A program made the translations under genes and the position numbers. The notes under the pieces are model-generated. The model was not told the DNA's origin. It did no database searches and was given only the letters and a program-made list of their open reading frames with translations. This document shows, in pieces, positions 90 through 19,626 of a stretch of 24,936 nt of DNA. The stretch is from the IMG/VR virus record IMGVR_UViG_3300024335_000046, positions 1 to 24,936 of that record; one strand, given 5' to 3'. The DNA comes from a virus. How positions within the stretch are numbered: position 1 is the first letter of the stretch; every line of letters begins with the position of its first letter.

Positions 90-349
90 GTTTTAAGTTC
101 CTTACCTATCTTGATCCTACCGTAAGGGTTGCGTCCTTCAAACTCTGAGGATGTCTCGTAGCCTAAAGCACCATCTACGTACCACGTATCCTGCTGTACT
201 CTCAAACCTGTCCACACAATGTCTGTAGAGGTTTCATTTAGATCGTTGAACGGCGTACCGTTAGGGATACTTGAGATGTGTTCAAACTCTCCGTACCATG
301 TGCAGCCTTGTAAGAGTGCTAATATAGAAATTAATTTAACTGCTCTCAT
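80..349 (-). CDS. Small putative lipoprotein (89 aa)
   Basis: The N-terminus is a short lipoprotein signal: a basic start (MRAVK), a hydrophobic stretch and a lipobox-like L-Q-G-C with Cys16 as the candidate lipidated residue. The remaining ~70 residues are polar and rich in aromatics and Gly (for example WYVDGALGYE), which suggests a small beta-rich periplasmic or outer-membrane-anchored domain. The start codon overlaps the upstream stop as ATGA (346-349). It lies three genes downstream of the holin and four downstream of the M15 peptidase, so an outer-membrane spanin-type role in lysis is possible. Classic outer spanins are shorter and Pro-rich, however, and no obvious inner-membrane partner with an N-terminal membrane helix is adjacent. 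It could instead be a superinfection-exclusion lipoprotein. Function unassigned. Confidence 0.75.
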   Translation of the reverse strand: MRAVKLISILALLQGCTWYGEFEHISSIPNGTPFNDLNETSTDIVWTGLRVQQDTWYVDGALGYETSSEFEGRNPYGRIKIGKELKTWD

Positions 350-543
350 TTGTACCCACCACCTGCTGCTTTGTATTCCTTAGCAAGCATCTGAGCTTTA
401 CGGGCTGACCATTGCCCCGGCTTACCACCTTTACTACCCGCCTTGATCTTGTTAAATAAACGCTTACGCATAGTAGGCTTGGTGTAGTTACCTGCCTCAT
501 TAACTTTGGACTTTTTCTTTGCTGGCTTTTTAGCTGCTGGCAT
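346..543 (-). CDS. Small Lys/Gly-rich basic phage protein (65 aa)
   Basis: The 65-residue protein starts with an Ala/Lys block (MPAAKKPAKKKSK), continues with a patch around GNYTKPTMRKR and ends in Gly-Gly-Gly-Tyr-Lys. It has a large net positive charge and no hydrophobic segment. A GGAGG ribosome binding site sits just upstream of the ATG at 543. I recognise the pattern (NEAGNYTKPTMRKRLF, QWSARKAQMLAK) as one that recurs in uncharacterised small proteins of marine phages, from memory only. Its charge suggests DNA or RNA binding or packaging with the genome, but nothing in the sequence proves it. Downstream it is coupled by ATGA to the lipoprotein gene. Confidence 0.8.
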   Translation of the reverse strand: MPAAKKPAKKKSKVNEAGNYTKPTMRKRLFNKIKAGSKGGKPGQWSARKAQMLAKEYKAAGGGYK

Positions 544-1390: not shown

Positions 1391-1759
1391 TTAATAACTC
1401 CAGATGTGGGGCCTTGGACGGCCTTCAGAGCATTCAAGGTCATCAAGGTGTACAAATCTAGAGCCGCCTTTCTGACTGATACCAATGCCAGTGAAACCTG
1501 CCTCTAGAGCGCCCTGTAAGAGCTTGTAAGCGGCTTCACCACGTACCCCTATATCTATGGCCCTACCTGAAGCATGTGCTCCCGGAGAGGCTTTACGGGC
1601 CTCTATGGGGTGGTCTTTACAACGGTATGCAGAGGTTACAGGGAAGCTAAAGCCAAGCTTCTCACGCAAGGCATCTACCTTCTTCATGAACTCAGGATCT
1701 ATACCCTTGGTTTGGCAGTGCTTACACTCCAGTTCTTCTTCTGTGAAGTACTTGTACAC
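1391..1759 (-). CDS. Peptidase M15 (D-Ala-D-Ala carboxypeptidase-like) endolysin (122 aa)
   Basis: This is a compact zinc peptidase of the M15 group (Pfam Peptidase_M15_3-like). It would cleave peptide cross-links of peptidoglycan and is the best candidate for the endolysin. Visible motifs are SAYRCKDHP near residues 43-51 and the zinc motif H62-ASGRAI-D69 (HxxxxxxD). A third ligand, His104, lies in FVHLDD. A Cys-x2-Cys pair (C12, C15) near the N-terminus is extra. The start codon is GTG at 1759-1757. It shares one base with the TAG of the LysM gene, and an AGAAGG sequence lies 9 bases upstream. No signal peptide is present, so export would depend on the adjacent holin. It is a single-domain enzyme; a separate LysM protein is encoded immediately upstream. 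Confidence 0.9.
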   Translation of the reverse strand: MYKYFTEEELECKHCQTKGIDPEFMKKVDALREKLGFSFPVTSAYRCKDHPIEARKASPGAHASGRAIDIGVRGEAAYKLLQGALEAGFTGIGISQKGGSRFVHLDDLECSEGRPRPHIWSY

Positions 1760-2640
1760 TAAATAAGACCTTCTATTTTCTTAACATCTGTAGAAGCAAG
1801 CTTACCTAAATTAATTCTTACTTCGCTTCCTTCACCTTTTCCGCTACCTAGTTCTCTAGCTATGTTTCTTAGCTGCGCGTAAGGGCTAAAGCCTGCTCTT
1901 TTAATACCAGACATTAATCCTGTAAAGCTAAACTTATCATCAGAGTCATTAAAGTTATAACGATCTACAATAATAGTATTCCCCTCATCGTCTTGTTCTA
2001 TACGCGCTTGTCCTATAGTAGTTTTCATAGAATATTCAGGATCAAATACTTTAGTAACAAAATCTAAAGCACCGCCGCCGCCACCTACATCTGCATACTG
2101 GCTTTGTCCCGCAGCTTGAGTACCATAATCAGCGTATTCAATAGCTTTCTTACCCTGACTTTGTGCGCGTAGTGCTGCATTTTTTAAAGCTTCTTTTTCT
2201 TCTTGTTTTAAATCCTGCTCTGTTAAAGTTTCTGAACCGCCAAATAAATCATACACAAACTGGCGAACATTTGTAGGTATTAGAGGCTCAGATTTAGGTC
2301 TTTCCAGTAATGAAGATTTTTCTGATTCCTGCTTAACAGGTTCTTTAAGTACAGGAGCTTCTTTCTTAACAGGCTCTTTACGTACAGGAGCTTCTTTCTT
2401 AACAGGCTCTTGGCGCACAGGAGCCTCTTGTTTAACAGGCTCTTTACGCACAGGTTGCTGGGCAGCTTGAACTTGTGCAGCCATATTAGGTTCTTTAGAA
2501 GGCACTACAATTTTTTGGCCCACATAAATTTTATCAGGATTACTAATTTTATTATTACGAGCAAGCTCTTTATAATCCATATTATACTGCTTAGCAATCT
2601 GACTGAGGGTGTCTCCTCTTTTTACTTCATACGAACTCAT
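1759..2640 (-). CDS. LysM-domain protein with Pro/Lys/Glu repeat linker (293 aa)
   Basis: Residues 3-47 are a clear LysM domain (YEVKRGDTLSQIAKQYNM, ending GQKIVVP), which binds N-acetylglucosamine chains of peptidoglycan. Residues about 63-104 are a low-complexity linker of an 11-residue unit (PVKKEAPVRKE). The C-terminal part (about 190-293) is a separate domain with GGGGGALDFV and a segment around RYNFNDSDDKFSF, of unknown function. There is no signal peptide. The start overlaps the upstream TGA as ATGA, with an AGGGAG ribosome binding site six bases ahead, and the stop overlaps the endolysin GTG. It may be a virion-associated wall-binding protein or a wall-targeting partner of the M15 enzyme. 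No catalytic motif was recognised. Confidence 0.8.
   Translation of the reverse strand: MSSYEVKRGDTLSQIAKQYNMDYKELARNNKISNPDKIYVGQKIVVPSKEPNMAAQVQAAQQPVRKEPVKQEAPVRQEPVKKEAPVRKEPVKKEAPVLKEPVKQESEKSSLLERPKSEPLIPTNVRQFVYDLFGGSETLTEQDLKQEEKEALKNAALRAQSQGKKAIEYADYGTQAAGQSQYADVGGGGGALDFVTKVFDPEYSMKTTIGQARIEQDDEGNTIIVDRYNFNDSDDKFSFTGLMSGIKRAGFSPYAQLRNIARELGSGKGEGSEVRINLGKLASTDVKKIEGLI
2330..2454 (-). repeat. 33-bp in-frame tandem repeat (Pro/Lys/Glu linker)
   Basis: Near-identical 33-base units begin at 2351, 2384 and 2417, with partial copies at each end (2330-2350 and 2450-2454). Each encodes an 11-residue unit similar to PVKKEAPVRKE. The repeat lies inside the LysM gene and stays in frame, so it is an expandable protein linker rather than a regulatory array. 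Confidence 0.9.
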
Positions 2641-5600
2641 GCTGCTCTCCCTTTACGCAAAGCCTTTAATACTTTTCCACCTGATTCAAAATTATGTCTT
2701 GCATCATTTGGATCAAACTCAATAGCACTTTCAGTTTTAAACTGTCCGGGCTTAAACAATATGTAAGAAAACGCCTCATCAGTAGGTACATCTGCTGGAG
2801 TATCTGAAGTGTTTAAATACCTGATAGAATCAAAGCCCTGATCTTCTAGCATTTTTCTAAATGATAAATTAATATCTGCCTTTTTCATACGCTCTACAAG
2901 CAAGTCTTTTTCTGACATTCTATTTTTATTAAGCGTACCGCCTGTTACTTCATCCTGCCAAGCTTCAAAGTCCAATACTTTTTGATACAAGTTGTCTTTA
3001 GCAGCCCTAAACTTAGAAGCATTTAAATTCGGAGCCTGAGTAAATACAGCCTCAACAACATTAGGTATTGTATCTGGAGTATCAAACAACACTGAAGCGT
3101 CTGAGTACAAAGCAAAGTTAGGATCGTTTAGTTCTAAAGGATTTTTAACTTGTATAAACCCACGCATCATAGCTATTGGAGGAGGAGCTTCACCTTTCTT
3201 CAAAGGCTTTTTAAGCCTATTAGATATTTGCCGTGAAGTTAAACCTGAGTCTTCATCAAAAGCATCCTCGTCTCCTTGTCTCCTAAACAATGCCATACGT
3301 TCTGCTTGAGTCTGAGTTCCTACGTGCAGTCCTGTTTCGTTAGGCATACCCACAGCCTCTTCAAACTCATTGGAGAAACCACTAGCCACTGCTCTGTATT
3401 GCATTTGTTTTTCTTTAGAGGCGGCTATGAAAGCTTTTTTATTTGCTTCACGAATTTCAGGAGAAACCGTATAATCTATAGGCATTACTTTACCTGAAGG
3501 ATCTGTAGGCAGTGCTTGCCTCGGCATCCTGCTAAAAATTTTACGAGCTAATGTCCGTTCTTCTGGTGTAAACTCTGCTATAAGTTTTGTTACTTCTTCA
3601 GTAGAAATAGTTCTACCAACAGTCTGAGCAACACCCTTGTAGTAATTATCAAACTTATATTCCCAATTAGTATTAATGTTTCTAGCACCAATAGTGTCTA
3701 GCTCGTAAGCTAAATGATAATCTATGTCTTGAGTATTGGCTCCTTCCATGTCGAACTGCTCGGATAGTTCCATGTCTCTATTGTAGTTTTTTATTTGATC
3801 TTTACTATAACCACGCGCCCTGCTAAAGTCATCGCCCATGCGTAAAGCACCCTGCTCGTCTATAAACTCGGGCATTTCTTTTCGCATATCAGACATACTT
3901 AGGTCATGCTTTTCGCCAATAGAGGATTTAACTTTTGCAAACAACATTTCCTTGAAGTCAGGATCATCTAGCTCTGCCGGTAAATCAGGATCTGGGCTGG
4001 CATAAGTTTCTTCAATATTTTTAGCTACCTTAACCGCGCCCTCAGTAGAAACTTTTACATTATTCTTCTTGGTTTCTCCCAGAATAGTTTGCGCCAACTC
4101 ATTTACAAAGGGTGATAAAGCTTTGGTAGCTGCTCTAGTCAGCCCGCCTACTACGTATCGACTTCTTTCTTCACGATCTTCTTGATCAATAAAAGCATCC
4201 CCAGCTTGTGAGTCGTAAGGACGGCCTGTTACTTTATCTATGCGCTCATCAGGTTCACTAGCTGCGCTTTCTACTTCTACAAGGCCACCTTTGTCGTATG
4301 GCGCTCTGCGCTTTTTCTTTTCAAAAGATTCCCAAAAATCATCATAATCTTCTTTAATATCTTCGCCCATAATTGGATCTATGGCACCATAAAAAGGCAT
4401 ACGGCCACCTATAATCGGTCCAATTTTTCCGTAACTAAAACCTCTAGCTGCATCGCTTGCTAAAGGCCCAGCTAAGGAAGCTGTGGCAGTAAACGGATTA
4501 CCTGTTACATCATAAGTTTTTTGAGTTCGTTGAACCATATCTAAAAGAATACCCGCGCCTCCCCATCTTGCTACACCTTCAGCAGCAATTTCAGCTCCGC
4601 TTTTGTCTGAAAAAGAATCTGAATTTCTTACATAATTCAAACCTGTAGCAGCCGCTGTCATAGTTATAGCAGTAGCTAAAGTATTTGCCGCCCCTACAGG
4701 ATTGTCAGCTAAACCAGCAATTGCACGTACAAACTGTTTTAGAACTTTATTTGTAAAAGCTGTGGGGTAACCTAGTAGCTCTGCAAAAATTGCTTTTTTA
4801 GGATCTGACATCCAGATAGGCTTTATAGCTGCTCGGGGGCTTGTATCTAAAATAACTTCATTTACATATCTACCTGCACCTCTTTTAATATTTTTATAAA
4901 AAGGATCTTTAGAATTTATTTCACCGCTATTTCTGTTTAAGTAAGCGATGCCTTGATCTATATCTACATTGAGTTCAGCTAATTGATTTCGTAAATTTTT
5001 AATTCTTTTAGAATCTGGCAAGGCTCCATGATTTTTAATAGCTGTTAAATTCTTGTGTATTAAAGATTTACCTGTGTTATAGCTCGCAAGCTGCACTGTT
5101 TTTGTCCAACCGTCCAACAAAGTCATTTTAAAAAATGCTCTGTTTGCTTTTTTAAAACCATGCCCTGCTATACTAGAGTCTCCTAAGCGATCAGCTGCGC
5201 TAACACTAGCATTTTCTAACATTAAAAATGACTCTCGCATTTCATGAAATATTTCAGGATCTGAAAGCCCTTGCTTTCCTAGCTTTCTTCGTAGTCCATT
5301 AGTCATTAATTCTGTTCCTTGAGCAAGTGCTTGCCCAAAACCTTTACCCATTTCTTTAGTTCCCGCTTTCTGCATGTTTAAAAGAACTTCAGGTAAACTA
5401 GATACTGTGGCAAAAGCTAAAGTAGACATTCTTATAAGAGTAGCGTAGCCATCACGGGCAAATTGAGCAGCAGGCCCAAAATCTTCTAAACCTTCGCCCG
5501 TCATACTTTTGTAAAGATCTTGAATATGCTCTTTATCTGTATCAGTAAAGGTATTTTTTACCGCCTCCACTTCCCTTTTAATTGGATCAATAAATTTAGT

Positions 5601-7946
5601 AGTAAACTCATCTACATTATTGACACCAAACACTTTTCTTTTTGAATAAGAATTTGCACTTTGCGTAATGTATTGAAACAAAACATTTTCAATATCATTA
5701 TCAAGAAAGTCTTCATATTTATTATCGTCTTTAATACTATTAAACTTACGGGCGGTAAAAAAAGAATTGCCTGCTACATGAGAAGCCCCGCTGGGGCCAG
5801 CTGTATCGTTTTTCTTTTTTAACATGCCTTCTATAATAGCCTTGGCTTCGTCCATATTTTCAGCTTCGCCATCTTCTATAAGAAGTTTAGCAAATCTATT
5901 TTGACCTTTACCTGCTAGTTCGGCTCTTTTAGCGTCAGTTACAACTATACGTTGACCATAAAAGTCTTTCATCAAAGCCTTTCTATTCCAAAGACGCGGG
6001 AAGTAATCTTCAGGAATAACATCTGTTTCAAAACCTAATTCTTCATTTTTAGCAATTACTTGATTTAATACATCGCGTCTAATTAAACTTGCCGCTTTGT
6101 TTACATCTTCTGATTGAGAACGTGACCCACGTAAAGCTCTTACAAGCTCTGTATTTATAATATCTTTTAAACCCCCATGAGAAGCGTCTCGTAGGCTGTG
6201 TGTAGCCCTTATTAAAGGTGCATACAAAGCTCCAGCATAGTCTTTCCAAGTCTCGTTGTAGTCCATGCCGACCTGTCGCGTTTCACTTGTATAAGTTTGA
6301 TTAGCGTCATAACGCATTATTTCAGCTAAGCGAAGAGCAGAAGGAGACTCAGAAAACTTAGTAAGTACTTTTGTAGGTCTTCCAAATAAAACCTTACCAT
6401 GTAGCGTTTGTGTCTTCTTTAGCAACATTGCTCTAGCATTGTCTGGAGATATGACACCTCTTTCTACTTGCAATAGAGTGTCAGCTACTTCTGCCTGTGT
6501 CTGCTCACTGCCTCCAATTTTAGAAGTAAATGCTTGCGCTTTAGCTGTAATAGCTTTAGGAATCTCTACACTACCTGCTTCTTGAGCCACGATAGTCAAT
6601 TCATCAAGAGCTTTAGTTACATTTTCAGAAGGAGCATCGGGGCCTTTCTTTCTATTTCTCATGTAGTTGCTAAACGAAGCAATAGCAAACTCTCTGCTTT
6701 GCTTAGCTTTGTTCATACCATAGAATACCTCACCCATTTCTTCCATGAGTTCGTCATCTAGATCATCAATGTTAGGAAGATCTCTAGTAGCTTCATAGTC
6801 AAATATAACTTCTTCTAGCTCTAACCTATCTATATCATATTGCTCTGCAATTTTTTCTATGTCTGCATCAGATACAAAGCCGCCATACTTAGTATCTTCC
6901 TGCTGGCGCTGTTGAGCTTCTTTAGAAGCCTGTCGAGACTGCTTAGCATTAAATCGTGCCTGCTTCTGGGCCTGTTCTGGGCTAGGAGCTACGCTCATTA
7001 AAAGCTCTTCTACGTCATCTTTAAATTCTAGATCTACATTTTTAACTTCTTCTGCTGAAATTTCATTTTGCGTAGGAGTGCCAGTTTCATTTACTAAGTT
7101 TAATTCAACTTCTTCTTCGTCTACAGAGCGTCTAATGTTAGCATCACCCAACCTACTACGAAATATATTATTATAACCACGCCCAGCAAAAGACAAACCT
7201 TTAGCTAACCCCTCTCCAATTTCAGGAGTGAACCGTCCTAAAGCACCACCTCCTACTGTTCCTAGCGTTGTTGCAGTAATGCTTTGCGCCATGTCAAATT
7301 CTTTTTGAATATCGGCTGCCATATGAACAGCTTGCTCAGAAGCGTTGCCAACACCTGTCCAACCTGCCCCTGCCACTGCTGCTTTTGTCATCATAGCATT
7401 ACGGCTATTGCTGGCTGCAAACTGCAAAGCTCTTTTAGCCGCTTCATTACCTACAGCGGCCCGCATAGCTAGAGGTAATTTAGGCCCGCCTACCATCATA
7501 GTAGCTACATTTAAAGGATCTTGAAAAAAATGTTTAGCACCACTAACGACAGATCCAAAATATTCAAAGCCTTCAGGGTCTGTATTTTCCCAATCCTGTA
7601 GTATTCTACCGTAAGCATCTTTAACTTCTTGCGGTGCCTTTTCAAGCATAGCCGCAGTACCAAAGCCAGAAAAAGTCATAGCATCTTGGCGTAGCCTATC
7701 TATAATTTCATCAGAGGCATAGTCTTCTACATTTCCTGCTACAGCTTTCATGTAATCGTTATCGCCAAACCTATGCTCGAATACAGTTTCTAAATCTTCT
7801 GCTCTTGCAGCTTTAAAATCTGACACAGACATAGTAGTATCTTTAGCAGCCTCTGGTATATCTTTAGATACAGGCGCAGACTGCATGTGATCTGTAAAAT
7901 CATTAAGATTTGTAAAGTCTATTTTAGGCTTTGAAATTTCAGTCAT
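2637..7946 (-). CDS. Very large polyvalent/ejection-type virion protein with C-terminal ADP-ribosyltransferase-like domain (1769 aa)
   Basis: This is the largest gene of the window. Residues ~130-260 are Ala/Gly-rich hydrophobic helices around QDPLNVATMMVGG. The middle includes a YFPRLWNR motif near residue 645 and Ala-rich membrane-like helices near 1056-1110. A Gly/Pro-rich stretch (IGPIIGGRMPFYG) follows near 1180. These features resemble large proteins of marine phages that are packaged and ejected, and the 'large polyvalent protein' class. The C-terminal ~230 residues look like a polyvalent-type ADP-ribosyltransferase fold, annotated separately. The start is ATG with a 5-base gap to the upstream gene; the stop overlaps the LysM ATG. 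Placement between other putative ejection proteins and lysis genes suggests the product enters the host with the DNA. No peptidase or transglycosylase motif was seen. Function beyond the C-terminus is unassigned. Confidence 0.85.
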   Translation of the reverse strand: MTEISKPKIDFTNLNDFTDHMQSAPVSKDIPEAAKDTTMSVSDFKAARAEDLETVFEHRFGDNDYMKAVAGNVEDYASDEIIDRLRQDAMTFSGFGTAAMLEKAPQEVKDAYGRILQDWENTDPEGFEYFGSVVSGAKHFFQDPLNVATMMVGGPKLPLAMRAAVGNEAAKRALQFAASNSRNAMMTKAAVAGAGWTGVGNASEQAVHMAADIQKEFDMAQSITATTLGTVGGGALGRFTPEIGEGLAKGLSFAGRGYNNIFRSRLGDANIRRSVDEEEVELNLVNETGTPTQNEISAEEVKNVDLEFKDDVEELLMSVAPSPEQAQKQARFNAKQSRQASKEAQQRQQEDTKYGGFVSDADIEKIAEQYDIDRLELEEVIFDYEATRDLPNIDDLDDELMEEMGEVFYGMNKAKQSREFAIASFSNYMRNRKKGPDAPSENVTKALDELTIVAQEAGSVEIPKAITAKAQAFTSKIGGSEQTQAEVADTLLQVERGVISPDNARAMLLKKTQTLHGKVLFGRPTKVLTKFSESPSALRLAEIMRYDANQTYTSETRQVGMDYNETWKDYAGALYAPLIRATHSLRDASHGGLKDIINTELVRALRGSRSQSEDVNKAASLIRRDVLNQVIAKNEELGFETDVIPEDYFPRLWNRKALMKDFYGQRIVVTDAKRAELAGKGQNRFAKLLIEDGEAENMDEAKAIIEGMLKKKNDTAGPSGASHVAGNSFFTARKFNSIKDDNKYEDFLDNDIENVLFQYITQSANSYSKRKVFGVNNVDEFTTKFIDPIKREVEAVKNTFTDTDKEHIQDLYKSMTGEGLEDFGPAAQFARDGYATLIRMSTLAFATVSSLPEVLLNMQKAGTKEMGKGFGQALAQGTELMTNGLRRKLGKQGLSDPEIFHEMRESFLMLENASVSAADRLGDSSIAGHGFKKANRAFFKMTLLDGWTKTVQLASYNTGKSLIHKNLTAIKNHGALPDSKRIKNLRNQLAELNVDIDQGIAYLNRNSGEINSKDPFYKNIKRGAGRYVNEVILDTSPRAAIKPIWMSDPKKAIFAELLGYPTAFTNKVLKQFVRAIAGLADNPVGAANTLATAITMTAAATGLNYVRNSDSFSDKSGAEIAAEGVARWGGAGILLDMVQRTQKTYDVTGNPFTATASLAGPLASDAARGFSYGKIGPIIGGRMPFYGAIDPIMGEDIKEDYDDFWESFEKKKRRAPYDKGGLVEVESAASEPDERIDKVTGRPYDSQAGDAFIDQEDREERSRYVVGGLTRAATKALSPFVNELAQTILGETKKNNVKVSTEGAVKVAKNIEETYASPDPDLPAELDDPDFKEMLFAKVKSSIGEKHDLSMSDMRKEMPEFIDEQGALRMGDDFSRARGYSKDQIKNYNRDMELSEQFDMEGANTQDIDYHLAYELDTIGARNINTNWEYKFDNYYKGVAQTVGRTISTEEVTKLIAEFTPEERTLARKIFSRMPRQALPTDPSGKVMPIDYTVSPEIREANKKAFIAASKEKQMQYRAVASGFSNEFEEAVGMPNETGLHVGTQTQAERMALFRRQGDEDAFDEDSGLTSRQISNRLKKPLKKGEAPPPIAMMRGFIQVKNPLELNDPNFALYSDASVLFDTPDTIPNVVEAVFTQAPNLNASKFRAAKDNLYQKVLDFEAWQDEVTGGTLNKNRMSEKDLLVERMKKADINLSFRKMLEDQGFDSIRYLNTSDTPADVPTDEAFSYILFKPGQFKTESAIEFDPNDARHNFESGGKVLKALRKGRAA
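2640..3332 (-). other. ADP-ribosyltransferase-like (ART-PolyVal-type) domain of the 1769-aa protein
   Basis: Residues 1539-1769 begin with GLHVGTQTQAER and continue with IQVKNPLELND. They end with GFDSIRYLN and SYILFKPGQFKTESAIEFDPND, separated here by a short acidic loop. This order matches the general plan of ADP-ribosyltransferase domains in phage polyvalent proteins: an N-terminal 'yHGT' strand with His1541, an Asn-Pro-Leu strand, a 'GyDgi.y.n' turn, and a terminal 'y.vF.p.QIKs' strand with Gln1735. The assignment is pattern recognition without a profile search. The substitution of Phe for Ile in the last motif and the absence of a clear catalytic Glu leave activity uncertain. Confidence 0.55.
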
Positions 7947-7951
7947 TTAAA

Positions 7952-9664
7952 TTAGTCCTGAATAGATTGAAGAAGCTGATATACAGAATACGAGTTGCCT
8001 GACTTATCGCTAATTAAAGGTTTAAATAAATGATTGTATGCTGGATCGTCTTGATAGCCATTAAAGCTTTGTAAGTACGCAGTTAAAGTTTTTTTGTCGC
8101 TTTGCAAATTATTTAACTCTTCCATTAAAGCTTCGCTTTTAACAACACCTGCTATATAAGCTGAGTCTACACGGGCAGCATTAGATTTTTTAATACTACC
8201 AAGAGCTTCTAAAATTTCTAGAGTTGTAGGCTCTGCCTTTTTAACACTAAGGCTAAAATCAAAATCATCTGCTTCAAAAAAATCAGGAGCCACACTTTTA
8301 TCTACCATTCTAGCCATATCATTAAGAACAATATGCTGACTAATTGTTTGAGATAAGGTAGCAGAATTATTTTTGTAGCCGTCTGTTTTTGTATTAAATT
8401 TAATAACTGAAGAGTCCGCAACCATATCAGCGTAAGCCGCAGTAAATGTTTTAGCTGCTAAATCTTCGTTATCTACATTTATATCTCGTAGAACATATTC
8501 AGCATAGGCATCACTAAACCCGTTAAAATCAGAGTCATGTCCGCTTTGAAAAACACCTAGCTGGTGTCTGAAATCTTGAGCAGTCGCTTCCGCTTCTGCT
8601 GGAGTAACTGATGCGGCCCTTAATGGATCTAAACGTACAGGAGTATCCGTCACGATAGGATCACTTACAGGATTGTCATACGGATCTAACTGTACTTCAG
8701 TTTTTCTATTATAAACAATACCACCTATTGTTACTTGAGTAGTTGTAACTTTTGGTGTTGTTTGAGTTTTTAAATCTGTAGATGTTTCATCGGGTACAAA
8801 AGTTTCTTTTTCTCGACCCCATCCATCTTTTTTAAGAACACGCCTACCTGTCACAGTATTTTGTTTGCCATTAATGTAAACAGTTTGTGTATCTGCTTTT
8901 TCACTGACAACTTCATAATCATTATCAGAAGCTTTAAAAGACTCCATAGACTTAGCAATCTTCTGGGCATCCTGCACAGGCACCCCTCTTGCCAAGGCGG
9001 ATTGCGCGGCTGCTAAGGCATCTACGTCTCTTATATAACGACTGTTAATAATGCTATTAGCTGCGTCTGCTCTCAACGCCCCTCCTGACTTACCTCTAAA
9101 GAATCCTGCAACGCCTTGCGCCACAGATCCTAAAGGAGTATCGGCAATCCCGTCATTAATTTTAATAAACTTTTCAAAAGCTGTAGAGTCATTACCTACA
9201 GACATGGCAGCTTGCGTAGCTTCATTAAATAAAGTTTTATTCTTTTTAGCTAGTTCTGTAGCCTGCGTGTACACATATTGATCAAAACCATCTTTTGTAT
9301 ATGACTGCTCATCAACATTCATTTTTAATTGTTTTTCAAGCAAAGGAATGTATTGATCTCGCAAATAACCTTCTACGCCTTGAGCATGGGCTTGAGCTTT
9401 TTTATTATTATCCAAGTGCGTAATACTTTGCTGTACTCCCGCATTGTATTTAGCTCTTGCTGCCATGATGGGTTCTTGTTGCATAAACTGAAGGGCTTTT
9501 CTTTCACTATTAGTCTGAGCAATAGAGCCTAAAAGCTTACCGCCCATCTGCAAGTAGCCTTCTATCTTTTGATCTTTTCTACGTCTTCTTGCAGCTTTAT
9601 CACGCTCTTCTCGGTTAGTGCGTTGTGTCGCAAGGAGGGATTCTCCTAAATCTTCAATAGCCAT
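7952..9664 (-). CDS. Putative virion-internal/ejection protein, unknown (570 aa)
   Basis: I do not recognise this protein. Residues 1-35 are highly charged with a run of Arg/Lys (AARRRRKDQK). Residues 35-130 look helical, with a Gly-rich hydrophobic turn (YLQMGGKLLGSI). Residues ~180-200 contain Gly-rich GSVAQGVAGFFRGKSGG. The middle (240-340) has short beta-like strands with many Thr/Val, and the rest is helical and acidic. There is no signal peptide or long membrane helix. The ATG directly follows the TAA of the 186-aa gene with a GGAG six bases upstream. It sits between the 480-aa and 1769-aa genes in what looks like an ejection-protein block, so a virion-internal role is inferred from position only. 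Confidence 0.7.
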   Translation of the reverse strand: MAIEDLGESLLATQRTNREERDKAARRRRKDQKIEGYLQMGGKLLGSIAQTNSERKALQFMQQEPIMAARAKYNAGVQQSITHLDNNKKAQAHAQGVEGYLRDQYIPLLEKQLKMNVDEQSYTKDGFDQYVYTQATELAKKNKTLFNEATQAAMSVGNDSTAFEKFIKINDGIADTPLGSVAQGVAGFFRGKSGGALRADAANSIINSRYIRDVDALAAAQSALARGVPVQDAQKIAKSMESFKASDNDYEVVSEKADTQTVYINGKQNTVTGRRVLKKDGWGREKETFVPDETSTDLKTQTTPKVTTTQVTIGGIVYNRKTEVQLDPYDNPVSDPIVTDTPVRLDPLRAASVTPAEAEATAQDFRHQLGVFQSGHDSDFNGFSDAYAEYVLRDINVDNEDLAAKTFTAAYADMVADSSVIKFNTKTDGYKNNSATLSQTISQHIVLNDMARMVDKSVAPDFFEADDFDFSLSVKKAEPTTLEILEALGSIKKSNAARVDSAYIAGVVKSEALMEELNNLQSDKKTLTAYLQSFNGYQDDPAYNHLFKPLISDKSGNSYSVYQLLQSIQD

Positions 9665-10225
9665 TTACTGCTCCATACTCAATAGACTTGGTGTCTCGGG
9701 TTGCGCTTCAGGCGGCCCTTCAGGGGGCGGTTTCATTTCTTGTATACGCTCTTCTATTTCTTGAGGCAAAGGTATGTTACTTGTCTGCTGTGCTTCTTGT
9801 AGTCTTTGAAGGACTTCGTAGTCTGCACTGTGTCCATCTAGTTCTTCTTCTTCACCGTCTATACCATCAATACTGAAATCAACATCTGCTCTTTCGCAAA
9901 GGGCCATAAAAATATATACAGTAGGCTCAATCAATAGCACCATAAGATCAGGATTTATTTTACCATTGTTATACATTTGGAACAAAAGAACTTTGGTTAT
10001 TTCCATAAGAGAAGTACCATTAGCAATCACTTCCATGAACTGCATGTAGTTTTCTTCTTCTGTTATTTTTTCAAATATAAAGTTTGTAGCCGCATTAATT
10101 GTTGTAAACTCAGGCGGCTTTTCAAATGGTAGGGGAGTGTCTGGATCGTTAGCCAAAGATTCTCCGGGTACTGATCTAGACATCCTAGCTTTTATAAGAT
10201 CTGTATTAATTTCTGGCATACTCAT
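9665..10225 (-). CDS. Acidic phage protein of unknown function (186 aa)
   Basis: The N-terminal 40 residues include a motif-like stretch (INTDLIKARMSRSVPGES) followed by a Pro-rich hinge (DTPLPFEKPPEF). Residues ~45-120 form a compact helical hydrophobic core (MEITKVLLFQMYNNGKINPD, then MVLLIEPTVYIFMALCERAD). The C-terminal third is acidic and ends in a Pro/Glu-rich tail. The pattern 'INTDLIKARMSRSVPGESL' with an 'LLIEPT.Y..MALAERA' core is one I remember from uncharacterised proteins of marine phages. A GGAG lies seven bases before the ATG at 10225; an in-frame ATG at codon 3 is an alternative start. It could be a chaperone or assembly partner for the neighbouring large internal proteins, but no function is shown. 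Confidence 0.75.
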   Translation of the reverse strand: MSMPEINTDLIKARMSRSVPGESLANDPDTPLPFEKPPEFTTINAATNFIFEKITEEENYMQFMEVIANGTSLMEITKVLLFQMYNNGKINPDLMVLLIEPTVYIFMALCERADVDFSIDGIDGEEEELDGHSADYEVLQRLQEAQQTSNIPLPQEIEERIQEMKPPPEGPPEAQPETPSLLSMEQ

Positions 10226-10228
10226 AAT

Positions 10229-11671
10229 TTATCTCCCATATCCTACTGCGCCGGGAAAGGCCATCGTAGGGCTTTGATGCATCAGTCCTTGATTTAAAAA
10301 GTCCATAGAAACTGCACCTGCGCCATAGTTTCCTGCGTTTAGAACTGAAGTCATGTCTACAGAAGCAAAGTCAAATTGAGGCAGGATATCTGCTATGTAA
10401 CCTCTTCCTCCACCAGACATTTCTATTTCTTCAGGTGTGGCAAATGTCCCAGCTACACTTTGCAACATAGGAAGTCCTACAGAAATAGGATCATCAATAG
10501 CTGCGCTTACGCTCCTATTAACGCCTGCCATGCCCCGCTCAAACAAAGAAGGCTTTGCTGCTTCTCCAGCTATGCCTGCTACATCAGTAACCTTGCCAGT
10601 GTTTAAAAGACCTCTTTCAAAGTCTGTTGTGCCGGGAGCATACTGAGGTTGAGAAGGCATAATGTATTGATTAGCATCTGCAAAGTCAAGAGGCTTACCT
10701 ACTATTTCTTCTACAGGACTTAACAAACTTTGAGTAGCTTTTTCATAAGACAAACCGCTATAATCAACATCAGCTACAGTCGGAATAGGCTTGTAAGCTG
10801 CTAAAGTAGTTTGACTTTGATCCAAGACAGCTTGACTAGCATCTAAAGCGCCTCCTGTAAAATCTGATAAACCCTCTCCCGTAGGCTTAAAGTTTAAGTT
10901 CAACTCTCCGGGCTTGTACCCTGTCTCTGGAACTTTTAAAATATCTTCAAACTCTAAAGGATCTGCTGCTGGATTAAACCCTGCAATAGTTGCTTGGGCA
11001 TTAGCTTGGATAGCTTTTATATTAGGACTAATTTTACTAAAATCTAAGTTTAAATTTTGCCCTGTGTTAGCTAAGTTGCTAAAAGTATTTTCATTTAAAA
11101 CTGTATTTGGATTTAAGTTTTGTAAATTTTCTACGGACAAACCTGTAGAGCTACTAAGCTTATCGAGTGTCATACCTTTAGATAAAGTAATATTGTCTCG
11201 GAAAGGATTCATTATATTACCCGCATCCATCTTAATTCCTTCCATCACACTATCAGCACCAAAAAAGTTTGCCTTGGCACTACTAATTTCTATACCGGGA
11301 AGTTTGTTTAATGCAGTTTTACCGAACTCCATGATGCCACTGGTCACAGTTTTAAAAGCGTTAACACCTGTCTGCACAAAGCCGTGGGCACCTTTCAATA
11401 CAGTACCTACGCCTTTTACAACACTGCCTAAAGCAGAGCCTTGCAGCCCCGCAAACTTACCAGTAAGACTAGCCATTTTACCTGCCATTCCTCCTAAGCC
11501 TTTCATTAAGGCTCCTCCTATCCCCGGAAGAATAAACATCATAGCTAGTTGACCAACTATGCCAATCTTACCCATGAATTTACCAAATTTCTTAAAGCCT
11601 TTCTTGATTGCTCTACCAATCTTTTTAAAGACCTTACCAATACCTTTAAATATTTTTTTAAAAAAACTCAT
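10229..11671 (-). CDS. Putative ejection protein with antimicrobial-peptide-like N-terminus and LysM-like segment (480 aa)
   Basis: The first 35 residues hold 13 Lys/Arg and no acidic residue, with Phe/Ile spaced to give an amphipathic helix (FFKKIFKGIGKVFKKIGR). A hydrophobic Gly-rich stretch follows at ~37-65 (IGIVGQLAMMFILPGIGGAL). No Asp or Glu occurs before residue 115. Residues ~160-209 look like a degenerate LysM: ITLSKGMTLDKLSSSTGLSV, then ENLQNLNPNT and a final GQNLNL. The rest is low-complexity and Pro/Gly-rich. This combination suggests a protein that interacts with membrane and wall during DNA entry. It is coupled upstream by TAATG to the 1039-aa gene. The LysM-like call is weaker than that at 1759-2640, and the membrane-active role is inference. 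Confidence 0.75.
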   Translation of the reverse strand: MSFFKKIFKGIGKVFKKIGRAIKKGFKKFGKFMGKIGIVGQLAMMFILPGIGGALMKGLGGMAGKMASLTGKFAGLQGSALGSVVKGVGTVLKGAHGFVQTGVNAFKTVTSGIMEFGKTALNKLPGIEISSAKANFFGADSVMEGIKMDAGNIMNPFRDNITLSKGMTLDKLSSSTGLSVENLQNLNPNTVLNENTFSNLANTGQNLNLDFSKISPNIKAIQANAQATIAGFNPAADPLEFEDILKVPETGYKPGELNLNFKPTGEGLSDFTGGALDASQAVLDQSQTTLAAYKPIPTVADVDYSGLSYEKATQSLLSPVEEIVGKPLDFADANQYIMPSQPQYAPGTTDFERGLLNTGKVTDVAGIAGEAAKPSLFERGMAGVNRSVSAAIDDPISVGLPMLQSVAGTFATPEEIEMSGGGRGYIADILPQFDFASVDMTSVLNAGNYGAGAVSMDFLNQGLMHQSPTMAFPGAVGYGR

Positions 11672-14600
11672 TATGTAATCCCATTAATAAGAGTGAATAA
11701 TCTGTCTACATTGGTAGACTTTTCTGCGCCGCCTGTAGCTCCCTCGTTAGCCAAGGCTGTAGCGTACAGGGTAGTTTTTCTTTGCTGTTCGTTTTCAAAA
11801 GCAGTTCTTACATAGGTTGCATCATCTCGTAAGTTCTGCCACAAAAAAGCCATTTCAGCAGAGTCCATTTGAAATACTTGTTGAGCATTTAACATATTAG
11901 AAGCATTTTGTGCTGCCGTATCAATTGTATTTGATTTTCTACGCCATTCGATATTAGACTGCTCTACAGCCTGAGCATTAGCAGCATTCCATGTGTCCCT
12001 TTGAAGATCCATATTCTCATTAAATTGATCTGCTGTAAGTTTTAAACTTGCATTATGCTTAGACACATCTGTAACATTTTGAGCATTAATAGCTTTAAGC
12101 CTATTTATTTCTGAAGTATTAAATTGTGTCATTGCGTTTTGTTGACTAGCATTGAACTGACGCATTGCTGCTTCTGTAGAAGTTAAAAACTGATTTACTT
12201 GATTTTTAGAAGTCGCATTAAATTGTTTTTCAGCATTTATGGCGGCTTGATCCGACAATATACGTTGTTGTTTAGCTTGTTGATCAAACATGATAGCTTG
12301 CTGCTCATTATTTAAATTAGCCATATCCATAGACAAAAAACTTTGAGCATTTGTAATTGCTACTTTTGTTCTTTGATCTACCGCTGCCATATCTAAACTT
12401 GCAAGAGCCGTAGCGTTTTGAAGCATAGCTTGTTGTTCGTTACTCAAATCTGCAAGTACAAGAGTTTGCATAGCTTTACTATTAGCTAACTCAACTTGTT
12501 GTGCTGCATTAAACTTTGTAAGATCTATATTAGCAACTGTAGAAGCATGTTGAATAGCTTGTTGCTGATCTACATTAAGCTGAGCCTGATTCATTTCGGC
12601 AGCAATTTTGCCTTGTAACAAATTAGTTTGCAGTCGAGAATTTAAATCTGCTAATTCTGTCTGTTGTGCAGCACTAAGATTTTCAGACGCATTTTGATTT
12701 CTAGAAGACAGATTAGCTAAACGCATTTGCTGATCATTAGAAAGATTAGCAAGCTCCATCTGCTGCTTAAACCCTGCATTCTTTACAAGAAAATCAGCAG
12801 CTATCTGCATATCTACAAGCCGCTTTTGATTGTAAGCAGTCATGTTTTCACGGGCAGTAGCGTCTTCGTACTTCATTTCAGCCAGTTCTATCTGCTGCTC
12901 GTTACCAAGCTCCATAGCATTTATAGCTTGTTGATTTTGAGAACGTAACACTGCTGACTGCTGCTCATTTGCAAGATTTTGAGTACGTGTTTGCTGCTGT
13001 TGCTGCGCGGAAGTTAGTACAGCTTGTTGATCAAAGTTACTTTGTAAGACTCCCATTTGCTGTGCCATCTGAGCAGTTTGTGAAGCTGCTGTTTGCTTGT
13101 TGGCTAAGTTAGCCATGCGTCTTTGCATGTCTTGTGTAGACTGCGTAAGATTGGCTTGCTGCTCATTAGAAAGGTTCTGCGCTGCACGTTGCTGGAGGGC
13201 CTGTGCGTTGCTTTGAGCCATTGGTAAGGCACTTTGTATGATTGCATTAAACAACGCATCACGCCCCACTGTGGAGGCCGACAGGCCCCTTTGAGCAAGT
13301 TTCTGCTCTACAGCTGATATTGCTGGCTTAGCCCATGCAGGAGTTTCACCGTCTTCTAACCCACCCAAAAGCGAATCCATTTGCGAAGATACAAGAGCTT
13401 CTGTAGGTAAAGCTGCTACAGCGGCTCGAACTTCCACAGGTTGCTCATCAATTTGTGCTTCAACAGTAGCTGGATCTTCTACAATAGCTGCTGTAATATC
13501 AGAAGGAATACCAGAAGTTTGTGCAATCATTTCGGCTGCCGCACCTTTCGCGGCTGTCCCAGTTACTGTGCGTCTTTGTGCAGCTTGAAAGCCTACTACG
13601 TCAGTGATAGCCGCCGCATCCCCAGCAGGAGCAGGCTCTCCTAGAATTTCTGTTCTTTGTTTTTCTTCAGCCGCTTTTGTAGAAGATACTTGAGTTTCTG
13701 AACCTGTCACGTCCCTTGCGAAAGTTCGTGAATCAATAGTGAACTGAGCTTCTTTAGCTAAAGTACTACTTTTTTGATCGGCAGTAGTTGTCACACCTTC
13801 CGCTTTTTCAGTAAGCTCTCTAATTTCATCAGGGTCTGCGATAGACTCTGCACTTAAATCACCTATAGCTGAAATTGTAGGGTCTAAGTCAACTGCCTTT
13901 GCCGCTGTGTATTCGGCTGGCTCAAAAGTAGTTACACTTTCTGCCTGAGCAGTTCCGGGAGCAAGTGTTGTCGTAGCTGTTCCTGCTATAGCTTTTTCTC
14001 TTGAAATAGCAGTGGCATCATCTAGCTTTTCAGTTTTAGTGCTCAGACCTGCTTTAAGTTTAGTAGTATCGGGATCTGTTTCTTTTACATCAGAAACAGC
14101 TAACTTTTTTACTGTAGCAGAATTAACTGTTGGCTTTTCAGGAGAAGTTATTTGAGGACGAGGAATGCTTTTAACAAAATCCTCTACATTTGTTTTGTTA
14201 TTAGCCATATTATTTCCTTGTTGCCCTGTCTGCCCTATACTGCTATAAATATCTTCAGGAAGTCCACTGCCGTTATTTTCTGTTATATTAAGATTTCTAG
14301 CATTTTCACCTTGCCTAGCTTTCCAAGCATTGTGAGCATTTTTGTATGCATTCTGACCACCGACGTTTCCTTTATAATCAGATCTTTTAGGCTCTGGATC
14401 AACATTACTAGTTGTTGTATTAGTCGATGTCGGAGTAGTAGTAGTAGTAGATGTACCACTGTTTGTCACAGAAACTTTTCCATATTTAGCTACTCTTTCA
14501 GCTTCGAGTCGAGCCGCTTCTGCTGCTTGTTCAGCGGCAAGTTTGTCCTCTTTTTCTTTAGCAGCTTTTTCTGCGGCTTCTCTAGCCGCTTTTTGTTCGG

Positions 14601-14790
14601 CAGTTTCTTGCAGCTGAGGTTTATTTTTTTTCTGCGATTCTATATTACGTTTTATCTCTTCTTCAGTAATAATATCAATATTACCTTCGACACCTCCAAA
14701 ATACTTTTTAGTTCGGCCACCCTTAGATTTTTTTTGACGAAGAGAAGTTAGTATTTTATTAGTATTTTTACTAGATCTTTTATTACTCAT
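11671..14790 (-). CDS. Long Gln/Asn/Ala-rich helical protein with 44 tandem 11-residue repeats (1039 aa)
   Basis: Residues 1-60 are basic (SKGGRTKKYFGG). Residues ~62-103 are a charged Ala/Lys/Glu helix, and ~105-125 a Thr/Ser-rich linker. Residues ~200-500 are Ala/Thr/Glu-rich, ending in a compact segment around PAWAKPAISAVEQKLAQRGL. From residue 533 to 1016 the sequence divides into 44 consecutive 11-residue units without insertion or deletion, rich in Gln/Asn/Ala, for example QQMELANLSND. The last 23 residues are non-repetitive. Such hendecads form right-handed coiled coils or long amphipathic helices. The family resembles an uncharacterised marine-phage protein known to me only from memory. 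It is preceded by AGGA six bases from the ATG and followed by the TAATG junction. It is probably a virion structural or ejection protein; a fibre role is possible. Confidence 0.85.
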   Translation of the reverse strand: MSNKRSSKNTNKILTSLRQKKSKGGRTKKYFGGVEGNIDIITEEEIKRNIESQKKNKPQLQETAEQKAAREAAEKAAKEKEDKLAAEQAAEAARLEAERVAKYGKVSVTNSGTSTTTTTPTSTNTTTSNVDPEPKRSDYKGNVGGQNAYKNAHNAWKARQGENARNLNITENNGSGLPEDIYSSIGQTGQQGNNMANNKTNVEDFVKSIPRPQITSPEKPTVNSATVKKLAVSDVKETDPDTTKLKAGLSTKTEKLDDATAISREKAIAGTATTTLAPGTAQAESVTTFEPAEYTAAKAVDLDPTISAIGDLSAESIADPDEIRELTEKAEGVTTTADQKSSTLAKEAQFTIDSRTFARDVTGSETQVSSTKAAEEKQRTEILGEPAPAGDAAAITDVVGFQAAQRRTVTGTAAKGAAAEMIAQTSGIPSDITAAIVEDPATVEAQIDEQPVEVRAAVAALPTEALVSSQMDSLLGGLEDGETPAWAKPAISAVEQKLAQRGLSASTVGRDALFNAIIQSALPMAQSNAQALQQRAAQNLSNEQQANLTQSTQDMQRRMANLANKQTAASQTAQMAQQMGVLQSNFDQQAVLTSAQQQQQTRTQNLANEQQSAVLRSQNQQAINAMELGNEQQIELAEMKYEDATARENMTAYNQKRLVDMQIAADFLVKNAGFKQQMELANLSNDQQMRLANLSSRNQNASENLSAAQQTELADLNSRLQTNLLQGKIAAEMNQAQLNVDQQQAIQHASTVANIDLTKFNAAQQVELANSKAMQTLVLADLSNEQQAMLQNATALASLDMAAVDQRTKVAITNAQSFLSMDMANLNNEQQAIMFDQQAKQQRILSDQAAINAEKQFNATSKNQVNQFLTSTEAAMRQFNASQQNAMTQFNTSEINRLKAINAQNVTDVSKHNASLKLTADQFNENMDLQRDTWNAANAQAVEQSNIEWRRKSNTIDTAAQNASNMLNAQQVFQMDSAEMAFLWQNLRDDATYVRTAFENEQQRKTTLYATALANEGATGGAEKSTNVDRLFTLINGIT
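11743..13194 (-). repeat. Array of 44 in-frame 33-base units (11-residue hendecad repeats)
   Basis: Codons for residues 533-1016 of the 1039-aa protein fall into exactly 44 units of 11 codons. Representative units are QQRAAQNLSNE (first), QQMELANLSND, QQTELADLNSR, QQAMLQNATAL, AAMRQFNASQQ, NAMTQFNTSEI and TTLYATALANE (last). Gln-Gln tends to open the units in the first two-thirds, and aromatic/hydrophobic-Asn-Ala occupies positions 6-8 in later units. DNA identity between units is low, so the array is old and maintained at protein level. Confidence 0.85.
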
Positions 14791-18435: not shown

Positions 18436-19626
18436 TTAAACAAACATGATGATGCAGACGCCATCACCGCCCGGCCCCCAAACGCGAGCCGTGGCAGATG
18501 TAGCGGTATGGAAGGGGCCGCTAAAGGCACCGCTACCTCCACCACCAACTCCTCCGTTACCAGTGCCTACTTGGCCAGTGCTGGTCGTGTCTACGCCGCT
18601 TATCCAAGTAAGCGCACCGCCACCCCCAAAGCCACCGCCGGTTGCGGATTGGTAATAATGGCCAGTGTTTCCGCTGGGATTGTAGCCTGAACTGGCACCA
18701 GACCCGCCTCCAAAACCACCATTTCCAGAGTAAACACCAGTGTTGTGAGTGTGGTAGGCATAGCCTCCATTGCCTTGAGCGTCAATAGTGCTGATCGTAG
18801 GACTAGTATTTGGGCCGCCTGAAGTACCGGTAATCATTTTAGTCGATGTCGGTGCTATTGGTTCTGCTGCGGGAGCGTCTTTTGCGGAACTTCCACCTAA
18901 ACTAAGGTAGGCATAAGCACCAGTGCTAGTAACACCAAGGACATCACCTCCGTTACCTCCAACACCTGCGCCGCCAGTAGCAATAATTTTATCTTGACCG
19001 CCCACAGCACCTGTCATAGTCACGCTGCCGCCATTAAAGGCTGTGCCATAAAGAGCAACAGCGCCTCCTCCTGTTGTTACAGCATTGTTGGGGCATCCAG
19101 CCACCCTTGAGATAGTACCCCCAGTGCCACCTGTGTAATTAAAGTCACCACCACTAGCAGTACCGCCTGCTCCTCCAGCAGTAGAGACAGCACTAGAAGT
19201 AGATGCGCTAAACTGCCCACCACCGCCACCATTAGCAACCATGTTTACAGACACCGCTGCGGAAGCAGTAACAAAGCTAGTGTTGCCCCCGTTGTTACCT
19301 ACTCTAGAAGAGTTAATATTATTTGGTGCCAACGTACTAGCGCCTCCAGCGCCAATAGTGATCGTGAAGGTTTCTCCTGCTGTTACATTGAAAGTTTTTT
19401 CGCTGTAACCACCACCGCCACCGCCTGTAGCATCTCCTTGGTTCTGATCTATGCTTGCGTTTTTATTAGCAAGGAACGCACCTTGACCTCCACCACCAGT
19501 AATGATGACTTTGATCCTACCTGTTAATGGCGCTGTAAAAGTCTTTGACTGACCAATAACAAACTGTGTTGTGGGTATTGGTGCTGCATCTCCACCACCG
19601 CTAATAAAATCTGTAAAGTTGCTCAT
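18436..19626 (-). CDS. Glycine-rich tail-tip adhesin-like protein (396 aa)
   Basis: The protein is dominated by Gly-rich loops (TGGGGGGYSEKTF, ANGGGGGQFSA, GNGGVGGGGSGAFS), with short beta strands such as RIKVIITGGGG and FTITIGAGG near the N-terminus. This pattern is typical of glycine-rich phage tail proteins and of tip adhesins where poly-Gly helices display recognition loops. An in-frame ATG at 19638 is possible. The ATG at 19626 gives the ATGA overlap seen elsewhere in this operon and leaves an AGGA 11 bases upstream, so I chose it. The gene is visibly GC-richer than its neighbours because of Gly codons. It would bind the host surface at the end of the 904-aa fibre. Confidence 0.75.
   Translation of the reverse strand: MSNFTDFISGGGDAAPIPTTQFVIGQSKTFTAPLTGRIKVIITGGGGQGAFLANKNASIDQNQGDATGGGGGGYSEKTFNVTAGETFTITIGAGGASTLAPNNINSSRVGNNGGNTSFVTASAAVSVNMVANGGGGGQFSASTSSAVSTAGGAGGTASGGDFNYTGGTGGTISRVAGCPNNAVTTGGGAVALYGTAFNGGSVTMTGAVGGQDKIIATGGAGVGGNGGDVLGVTSTGAYAYLSLGGSSAKDAPAAEPIAPTSTKMITGTSGGPNTSPTISTIDAQGNGGYAYHTHNTGVYSGNGGFGGGSGASSGYNPSGNTGHYYQSATGGGFGGGGALTWISGVDTTSTGQVGTGNGGVGGGGSGAFSGPFHTATSATARVWGPGGDGVCIIMFV

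Follow-up and report, generated by a model that had tools for sequence, protein, structure and literature searches.

To our knowledge, the passage of a short-tailed phage across two membranes and the cell wall is known in detail for few models, such as T7 and the N4-like phages. The T7 ejection proteins are described, in the passages of the source that concern them, as an outer-membrane channel (gp14), a periplasmic tunnel (gp15), and a protein that reaches the inner membrane (gp16) (PMC8954989). DEV gp73 is presented in the corresponding passages of its report as having a very positive region that faces the outer membrane and as making pores in bilayers (PMC10925440), and in the passages on N4 gp52 the modelled channel combines an amphipathic helix with a hydrophobic part (PMC12633501).

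The window analyzed here is the whole of the 24,936-base virus record IMGVR_UViG_3300024335_000046, in which all of the main genes are on the minus strand. A protein of 480 residues is encoded at complement(10229..11671), as assigned from the ORF list and the relatives. With a probability of about 0.5, this protein is an ejection (pilot) protein with an N-terminus that inserts into the host envelope. Like T7 gp14, DEV gp73, and N4 gp52, it would be the small member of a small-medium-large ejection set, and the membrane-directed helices of those proteins have a counterpart that is predicted from its sequence. No match naming any of the three was found in the PHROG, Pfam, and PDB-sequence searches; these families diverge beyond such searches. 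T7 gp14 is 196 aa long and has no cationic N-terminus, whereas the window protein has 480 aa and a predicted LysM-like domain.

Gene layout of the window and an ejection-type cassette

The main genes of the window encode tail proteins (phrog_10775 and phrog_5107), a tail fibre, a 1039-aa Gln-rich protein, the 480-aa protein, an acidic 186-aa protein, a 570-aa protein, a 1769-aa giant, a LysM protein, a peptidase M15, and a holin-like protein. The tail protein at 22341-23945 (minus strand) is 33-42% identical to the tail proteins of HTVC103P, HTVC104P, HTVC115P, and HMO-2011, and the phage is assigned to that marine group on this basis. In public records, relatives of this tail protein appear either as 'amidase' or as 'dimodular nonribosomal peptide synthetase'. 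These names look like misannotations, because other records name it a tail structure or phage stabilization protein. The tail fibre (19623-22337, minus strand) contains near-identical repeats of ~30 residues each, for example NDAVGADQLAANAVVTASIVDDNVTQAKIA.

The start codon of the 480-aa gene overlaps the stop codon of the upstream gene (TAATG). The sequence-only reading was concerned with positions 11327-11671 and named no strand; this stretch encodes residues 1-115 of complement(10229..11671), and a plus-strand reading is ruled out by the stops that are present. The 1039-aa Gln-rich protein is encoded directly upstream (11671..14790, minus strand; ORF list). No family match was obtained for it in the PHROG and Pfam searches. 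A long ORF occupies its slot in nearly all of the family loci.

The gene for the 186-aa acidic protein (9665..10225, minus strand; net charge -25) is the conserved partner of the 480-aa gene. Of the 66 unique family loci that extend at least 700 bases downstream, 65 have an acidic gene there by hmmsearch, with product lengths of 171-233 aa and net charges of -11 to -33. The acidic gene was also found in 14 cultured-phage records, and it can serve as a marker for finding the cassette. The next gene encodes the 570-aa protein (7952..9664, minus strand), which is proposed from gene order only as the medium ejection protein in the slot of T7 gp15. An ORF of 428-992 aa follows the acidic gene in most family loci, and no clear family match to the 570-aa protein was found in PHROG or Pfam. 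The 1769-aa giant (2637..7946, minus strand) is proposed as the large ejection protein in the slot of T7 gp16. It matches PHROG 7348 (E 6e-98) and the virion structural protein family PHROG 6958 (E 2e-21), and tblastn matches to proteins of KPP25, LUZ24 (gp50), and Slicky01 were obtained.

The 480-aa gene is thus in a late module and adjoins medium and giant ejection-type genes. The cassette order of small, small acidic, medium, and giant resembles that of T7 gp14-gp15-gp16, and this gene context suggests that the 480-aa protein is in the virion. The inner membrane had been named as a possible target in the sequence-only reading; by analogy, gene order favours the outer membrane, since the slot of the 480-aa gene is that of T7 gp14, the outer-membrane channel. 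The cassette is annotated as 'hypothetical protein' in every isolate examined and is named here.

The giant matches an internal part of the 2564-aa family phrog_7348, and the 293-aa LysM protein (1759-2640, minus strand) matches the C-terminal end of the same family, as if one giant protein had been split into two genes. A basic protein of 65 aa (346-543, minus strand) belongs to phrog_17747 (function unknown; E 2.5e-38) and carries the motif NYTKPTMRK...GQWSARKAQ. A look-alike of this protein sits between the cationic and acidic genes in HTVC103P, HTVC104P, and HTVC115P.

The cationic amphipathic N-terminus and the hydrophobic segment

Residues 1-35 of the 480-aa protein contain 13 K/R (12 K and 1 R) and no D/E. 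The acid-free stretch extends over residues 1-114 (11330..11671, minus strand), with Glu115 as the first acidic residue. Both counts agree with the sequence-only reading, and the spacing of Phe and Ile along one helix face was upheld by the hydrophobic-moment calculation. An Eisenberg moment of 0.76 at 100 degrees was obtained for residues 1-35, compared with 0.19 +/- 0.10 for 20,000 same-residue shuffles, none of which was as high. The column means of 65 aligned relatives gave a moment of 0.70 at 100 degrees versus 0.18 +/- 0.09 for permuted columns (0/20,000).

The cationic amphipathic helix is placed at residues 4-36 (11564..11662, minus strand) from the sequence pattern and from the AlphaFold2 model, in which a helix appears at residues 3-35 with low confidence (pLDDT about 57-64). 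Residues 4-36 consist of three 11-residue units, FKKIFKGIGKV, FKKIGRAIKKG, and FKKFGKFMGKI, with cations at unit positions 2, 3, 6, and 10. At 98.2 degrees per residue, all 12 cations of these units are found on one face in four stripes, at 98-196 degrees. The periodicity peak for 62 relatives is 98.9 +/- 1.2 degrees, which is closer to the 98.2 of an 11/3 surface helix than to the 102.9 of a heptad coiled coil, and the coiled coil is therefore disfavoured. The lag-11 identity in residues 4-36 is 0.50. This value was reached by 14 of 20,000 shuffles; it was also reached by 4,914 of 20,000 shuffles in which the hydrophobic and cationic classes were preserved, so the repeat is one of pattern and not of residues. 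An 11-residue repetition at the level of individual residues was rejected for this reason.

The helix of the 480-aa protein, which we take to be far more cationic than the lipid-binding helix of alpha-synuclein, shares with it an amphipathic character in units of about 11 residues, and no homology. Alpha-synuclein is described in part of the cited work as having seven imperfect repeats of 11 residues (PMC7430991).

Counted from the first residue of the conserved IGxxGQ motif, the face positions -25, -21, -18, -14, -10, -7, -4, and -3 (eight in all) are hydrophobic in 65/65 aligned relatives, whereas the cation positions are K/R in 57-98%. The greasy face is thus more constrained than the charges. 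Over codons 1-36 synonymous change is high and non-synonymous change is low (pS 0.61 and pN 0.03 for the window versus relative L005), which indicates that the protein sequence is under selection. A charge-and-moment test, with K/R minus D/E of at least 8 and a moment of at least 0.45, was applied to the 1,079 unique ORFs in the collected loci that start with ATG and are at least 100 aa long, and 106 of them passed. The family motif is present in 101 of the 106, and the other five are family members as judged by eye. The cationic amphipathic N-terminus is a real, conserved, and unannotated feature.

The helix is followed, as had been claimed, by a hydrophobic segment, IVGQLAMMFILPGIGGALM, at residues 38-56 (11504..11560, minus strand). 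It is the most hydrophobic stretch of the 480-aa protein, with a Kyte-Doolittle 19-residue mean of 1.82, and 57 of 74 unique relatives reach a value of 1.6. The segments of HTVC104P and HTVC115P are weaker (1.13 and 1.12, respectively). These lower values, together with a conserved Gln and a conserved Pro within the segment, indicate that it is not a classical transmembrane helix.

The resemblance to an antimicrobial peptide that was pointed out in the sequence-only reading holds for the cationic amphipathic helix itself. It stays a resemblance, as no solved peptide matched residues 1-52 in the PDB sequence search; PDB sequence searches with the protein likewise gave nothing relevant. A host-killing role, in which the N-terminus is produced late in infection as an antimicrobial or lysis peptide, would draw on a composition and moment that we take to be like those of cationic antimicrobial helices. 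This role is very improbable: the helix begins a protein of 320-530 aa that is encoded in a structural cassette, holin-like (PF11351) and peptidase M15 proteins have genes of their own in the window, and no match to a solved antimicrobial peptide was obtained.

The LysM-like domain and the choice between envelope and DNA

A domain with a predicted beta-alpha-alpha-beta fold, assigned from AlphaFold2, structure matches, and Pfam, is located at residues 157-211 (11039..11203, minus strand). The full AlphaFold2 model of the 480-aa protein is poor (mean pLDDT 51), but the pLDDT is about 90 over residues 161-210, which form a strand-helix-helix-strand arrangement. The top hits of the whole model in Foldseek are LysM domains at values that are not significant (best E 2.0). 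A Z of 6.0 to LysM 5bum was obtained using VIA-align (49/49 residues, 2.1 A), a score that is middling by the tool's own notes. When modelled alone (pLDDT 77), the domain matched LysM 4uz2 with a probability of 0.98 and an E of 0.13, and most of the listed hits were LysM.

In Pfam, LysM is the top hit for seven of eight family fragments, one of which exceeds the curated cut-off of 20.9 bits; the fragments of relatives L073 and L008 score 25.5 and 20.7 bits, respectively. The window fragment shares the beta-alpha-alpha-beta fold of the LysM domain (PF01476) over 47-49 residues in the models and differs in its score of 13.0 bits, which is under the cut-off and ranks third behind two HTH models. 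For relative L009, HTH_26 is the sole domain hit in the LysM-like region (16.1 bits, cut-off 22). An HTH assignment was considered, since the Pfam scores are close in some members, yet the predicted fold and the structure matches are those of LysM. Residues 157-211 are therefore described as LysM-like, a wall-binding-type fold with predicted peptidoglycan binding. A profile of the region detected the domain in 21 of 77 distinct full-length proteins from the 86-locus family set (hits tallied by eye), including the window's copy (L061). The domain was missed in the sequence-only reading; together with the three 11-residue units and the conserved gene neighbourhood, it is an addition to what that reading contained.

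The main alternative is suggested by T7 gp7.3 (phrog_1320, 99 aa). According to the passages of the structural source that mention it, its N-terminus is mostly positive and was not resolved, and density that surrounds the DNA end within the tail channel is assigned to it; the same passages state that gp7.3 is ejected and is needed for making an infective particle (PMC11784390). This placement on DNA, together with a C-terminal loop that binds the nozzle, is known for T7 only. The gp7.3 start, MGKKVKKAVKKVTKSVKKVVKEGARPVKQ, contains 12 K/R in 35 residues; its moment is 0.67 (0/5,000 shuffles), and its periodicity peaks at 99 degrees. Its charge, moment, and period are the same as those of the cationic amphipathic N-terminus of the 480-aa protein, and in both proteins a Gly/Ala segment follows the helix. 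The same kind of helix can thus sit on DNA in the virion, and the N-terminus of the window protein might likewise lie on the DNA end in the tail channel, with any membrane effect being secondary. A weak VirionAssem_T7 (PF11653) match in HTVC104P gp60 (13.1 bits versus a cut-off of 25) points in the same direction.

The two proteins differ in that gp7.3 has an acidic residue already at position 22 and no LysM match, while the window protein has 480 aa, no gp7.3-family match (PF11653 or phrog_1320), and a gene in the ejection cassette and not upstream of the portal as in T7. Coating of DNA needs charge; it does not need a strictly kept greasy face, a hydrophobic segment, or a LysM-like domain. 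These three features tilt the case toward the envelope, and a location of the N-terminus on the DNA end is judged rather unlikely. A two-stage role, with DNA first and the membrane later, is possible.

The membrane-engaging ejection protein is thus the preferred reading. The membrane-inserting virion peptide of the sequence-only reading is partly supported, by the conserved pattern, the more strictly kept greasy face, the hydrophobic segment, the ejection-type cassette, and the LysM-like domain in some members; its virion part follows by inference from gene context. The phage would be a short-tailed member of the wider HMO-2011/HTVC103P group, with the 480-aa protein as an internal-core protein that is packed in the virion and presumably exits via the tail before or with the DNA. 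Residues 4-36 would form an 11-residue-periodic helix on anionic lipid (lipid A or phospholipid), with twelve cations on one face and Phe, Ile, Val, and Met on the other. Residues 38-56 may then insert into the membrane, and several copies, presumably as an oligomer, might form the lining of a path, or open one, through which the medium and giant proteins would pass. In the window's branch, the LysM-like domain ~100 residues further on would anchor the chain to peptidoglycan in the periplasm. The presence of this domain in part of the family fits an envelope role, and a probable ejection protein is thereby found to carry a domain of the wall-binding type.

Distribution among related phages and an acyltransferase neighbour

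Searches with the 480-aa protein itself provided 39 relatives and searches with its profile (A1) provided 119. The 86 loci used for the N-terminal counts were derived from the 39 protein-derived loci and 80 of the 119 profile-derived loci. At least 9 K/R in the first 35 residues and a moment of at least 0.45 were found for 70 of 74 unique N-terminal stretches, as tallied by eye; the stretches under a moment of 0.45 are those of L095 and L104 (both with a start that is misassigned or cut), L117, and L136. Since FKKFGKFM or FKKFGKF was the search pattern in the protein- and profile-based searches, the invariance of this motif is partly due to selection of the sequences. Dozens of marine phage contigs retain the trait, as do the isolates HTVC103P, HTVC104P, HTVC115P, and Slicky01.

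The presence of the same N-terminus in related phages was also examined by anchoring on the acidic neighbour gene and ignoring the N-terminus, in a sample that has some contigs in common with the profile-search set. From 80 loci, 8 that were too short upstream and 11 duplicates were removed. The charge-and-moment test was passed by 50 of the 61 unique upstream genes under a start rule that favours the trait (the ATG within 180 bases that maximizes K/R minus twice D/E). Homologues without the amphipathic pattern, which would count against the sequence-only reading, make up at most 11 exceptions among these 61 genes. Two of these (L142 and L146) start inside the motif, L145 is just under the threshold, and five (L173, L194, L196, L203, and L218) are cationic with a low moment. 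The remaining three (L149, L153, and L159) are truly without a cationic N-terminus despite the acidic gene. The branch of these three keeps a hydrophobic TGxxGxMxALPGVG segment, and the cationic helix was either lost or never acquired. This branch provides a natural comparison for experiments.

Among the isolates, the genes upstream of the acidic gene are HTVC103P gp58, HTVC104P gp60, HTVC115P gp45, and Slicky01 WGH49920. Their products start with acid-free, cationic amphipathic stretches that contain 10-12 K/R, with moments of 0.47-0.70 and an LGPIGMIAMS-like motif. The protein in the same slot has no cationic start in phiM6, RHph_I3_11, CRP-207, HTVC033P, MQM1, CHOED, Aeromonas 1233, HMO-2011, CRP-9, and CRP-13. 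In MQM1 (L054:7543-7977), CHOED (L055:7561-7971), and Aeromonas 1233 (L059:6696-7139), the slot is occupied by a protein of 136-147 aa that is possibly the counterpart of the cationic protein; its start is amphipathic but acidic, and it has a YALxAxLxMMxNFP-type segment.

These isolates bear on whether the helix serves for packing, with its greasy face bound to a partner in the virion and no direct contact with lipid or DNA. The proposed partners are the portal barrel, the 1039-aa Gln-rich protein, and the acidic protein, which could shield the charges. The acidic gene adjoins in nearly every locus as described above (65/66; -11 to -33), and the conservation of FKKFGKFMxKIGIxGQ is tighter than lipid binding alone needs. 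Against this, the acidic gene is present without a cationic N-terminus in phiM6, RHph_I3_11, CHOED, MQM1, HTVC033P, and CRP-207, which also weakens the acidic protein as a mere charge partner, and the period of 98.9 and not 102.9 degrees disfavours a coiled coil. A packing role is accordingly considered distinctly unlikely.

As a putative membrane-engaging module, the 55-residue stretch at the N-terminus is defined, conserved, and also present in cultured pelagiphages, and membrane insertion is testable on a peptide; the finding is of interest more for this testability than for any surprise. No match among cultured phages was obtained with the 480-aa protein at either the DNA or the protein level. 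A hand-made 72-aa consensus query also gave no match among cultured phages, a result that the BLAST low-complexity filter makes uninformative. A profile search of the genome collection returned 457 stretches that matched the pattern, none of which was confirmed, and absence from this collection would fit a purely lytic family. The N-terminus of the family was not named in the open-access literature that was searched, which yielded neither virion proteomics nor an ejection or membrane experiment on any member. Pfam hits to LiaI-LiaF-TM_PspC (PF22571), Senescence, and SseC/SctB2 were far under the cut-off or weak and were set aside.

Matches to tape measure proteins were also obtained. The window protein matches phrog_167 at E 1.7e-4, and for relative L132 (6001-7128) the phrog_167 match has E 2.2e-8, with matches to six further tape-measure families. 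The matches are in internal stretches of the profiles, and tape measure proteins differ from the family in length, gene place, and tail type. The matches are probably compositional, and those of L132 are perhaps a hint at a shared pilot-protein chemistry.

A gene for an HlyC-family lysine acyltransferase (PF02794, 58.2 bits, cut-off 25) was identified in HTVC115P as gp46 (L052:5777-6226), and it overlaps the start of the cationic protein gene. Such a gene directly precedes or overlaps the cationic gene in 10/10 loci, namely HTVC115P and nine IMG/VR relatives (L223-L231) that were chosen by the enzyme and are close kin. In the nine IMG/VR loci the start of the cationic gene falls from 9 bases before to 5 bases past the point where the enzyme match ends. 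In five of the nine, the first 35 residues have a low moment (0.10-0.21) although their charge is high. The enzyme belongs to the RTX-toxin-activating family, and this gene order is that of an activating enzyme and its substrate. The lysine-rich helix may be a virion-borne membrane-insertion device that is fatty-acylated in the HTVC115P branch. This is a speculative and quite improbable extension of the preferred reading. If true, there would be two versions of the device: an acylated one in the HTVC115P branch and a bare cationic 11-residue helix with a LysM anchor in the window's branch. Lysine acylation was rejected for the latter, in which an HlyC-like gene was found in 0/40 family records including the window, many of them fragments. 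The HlyC-like genes of HTVC103P and HTVC104P are located elsewhere in the genome. In the pelagiphages HTVC112P, HTVC026P, and HTVC111P, which have tape measure genes, the tail module contains an HlyC-like gene, and the gene for a large tail protein follows it immediately.
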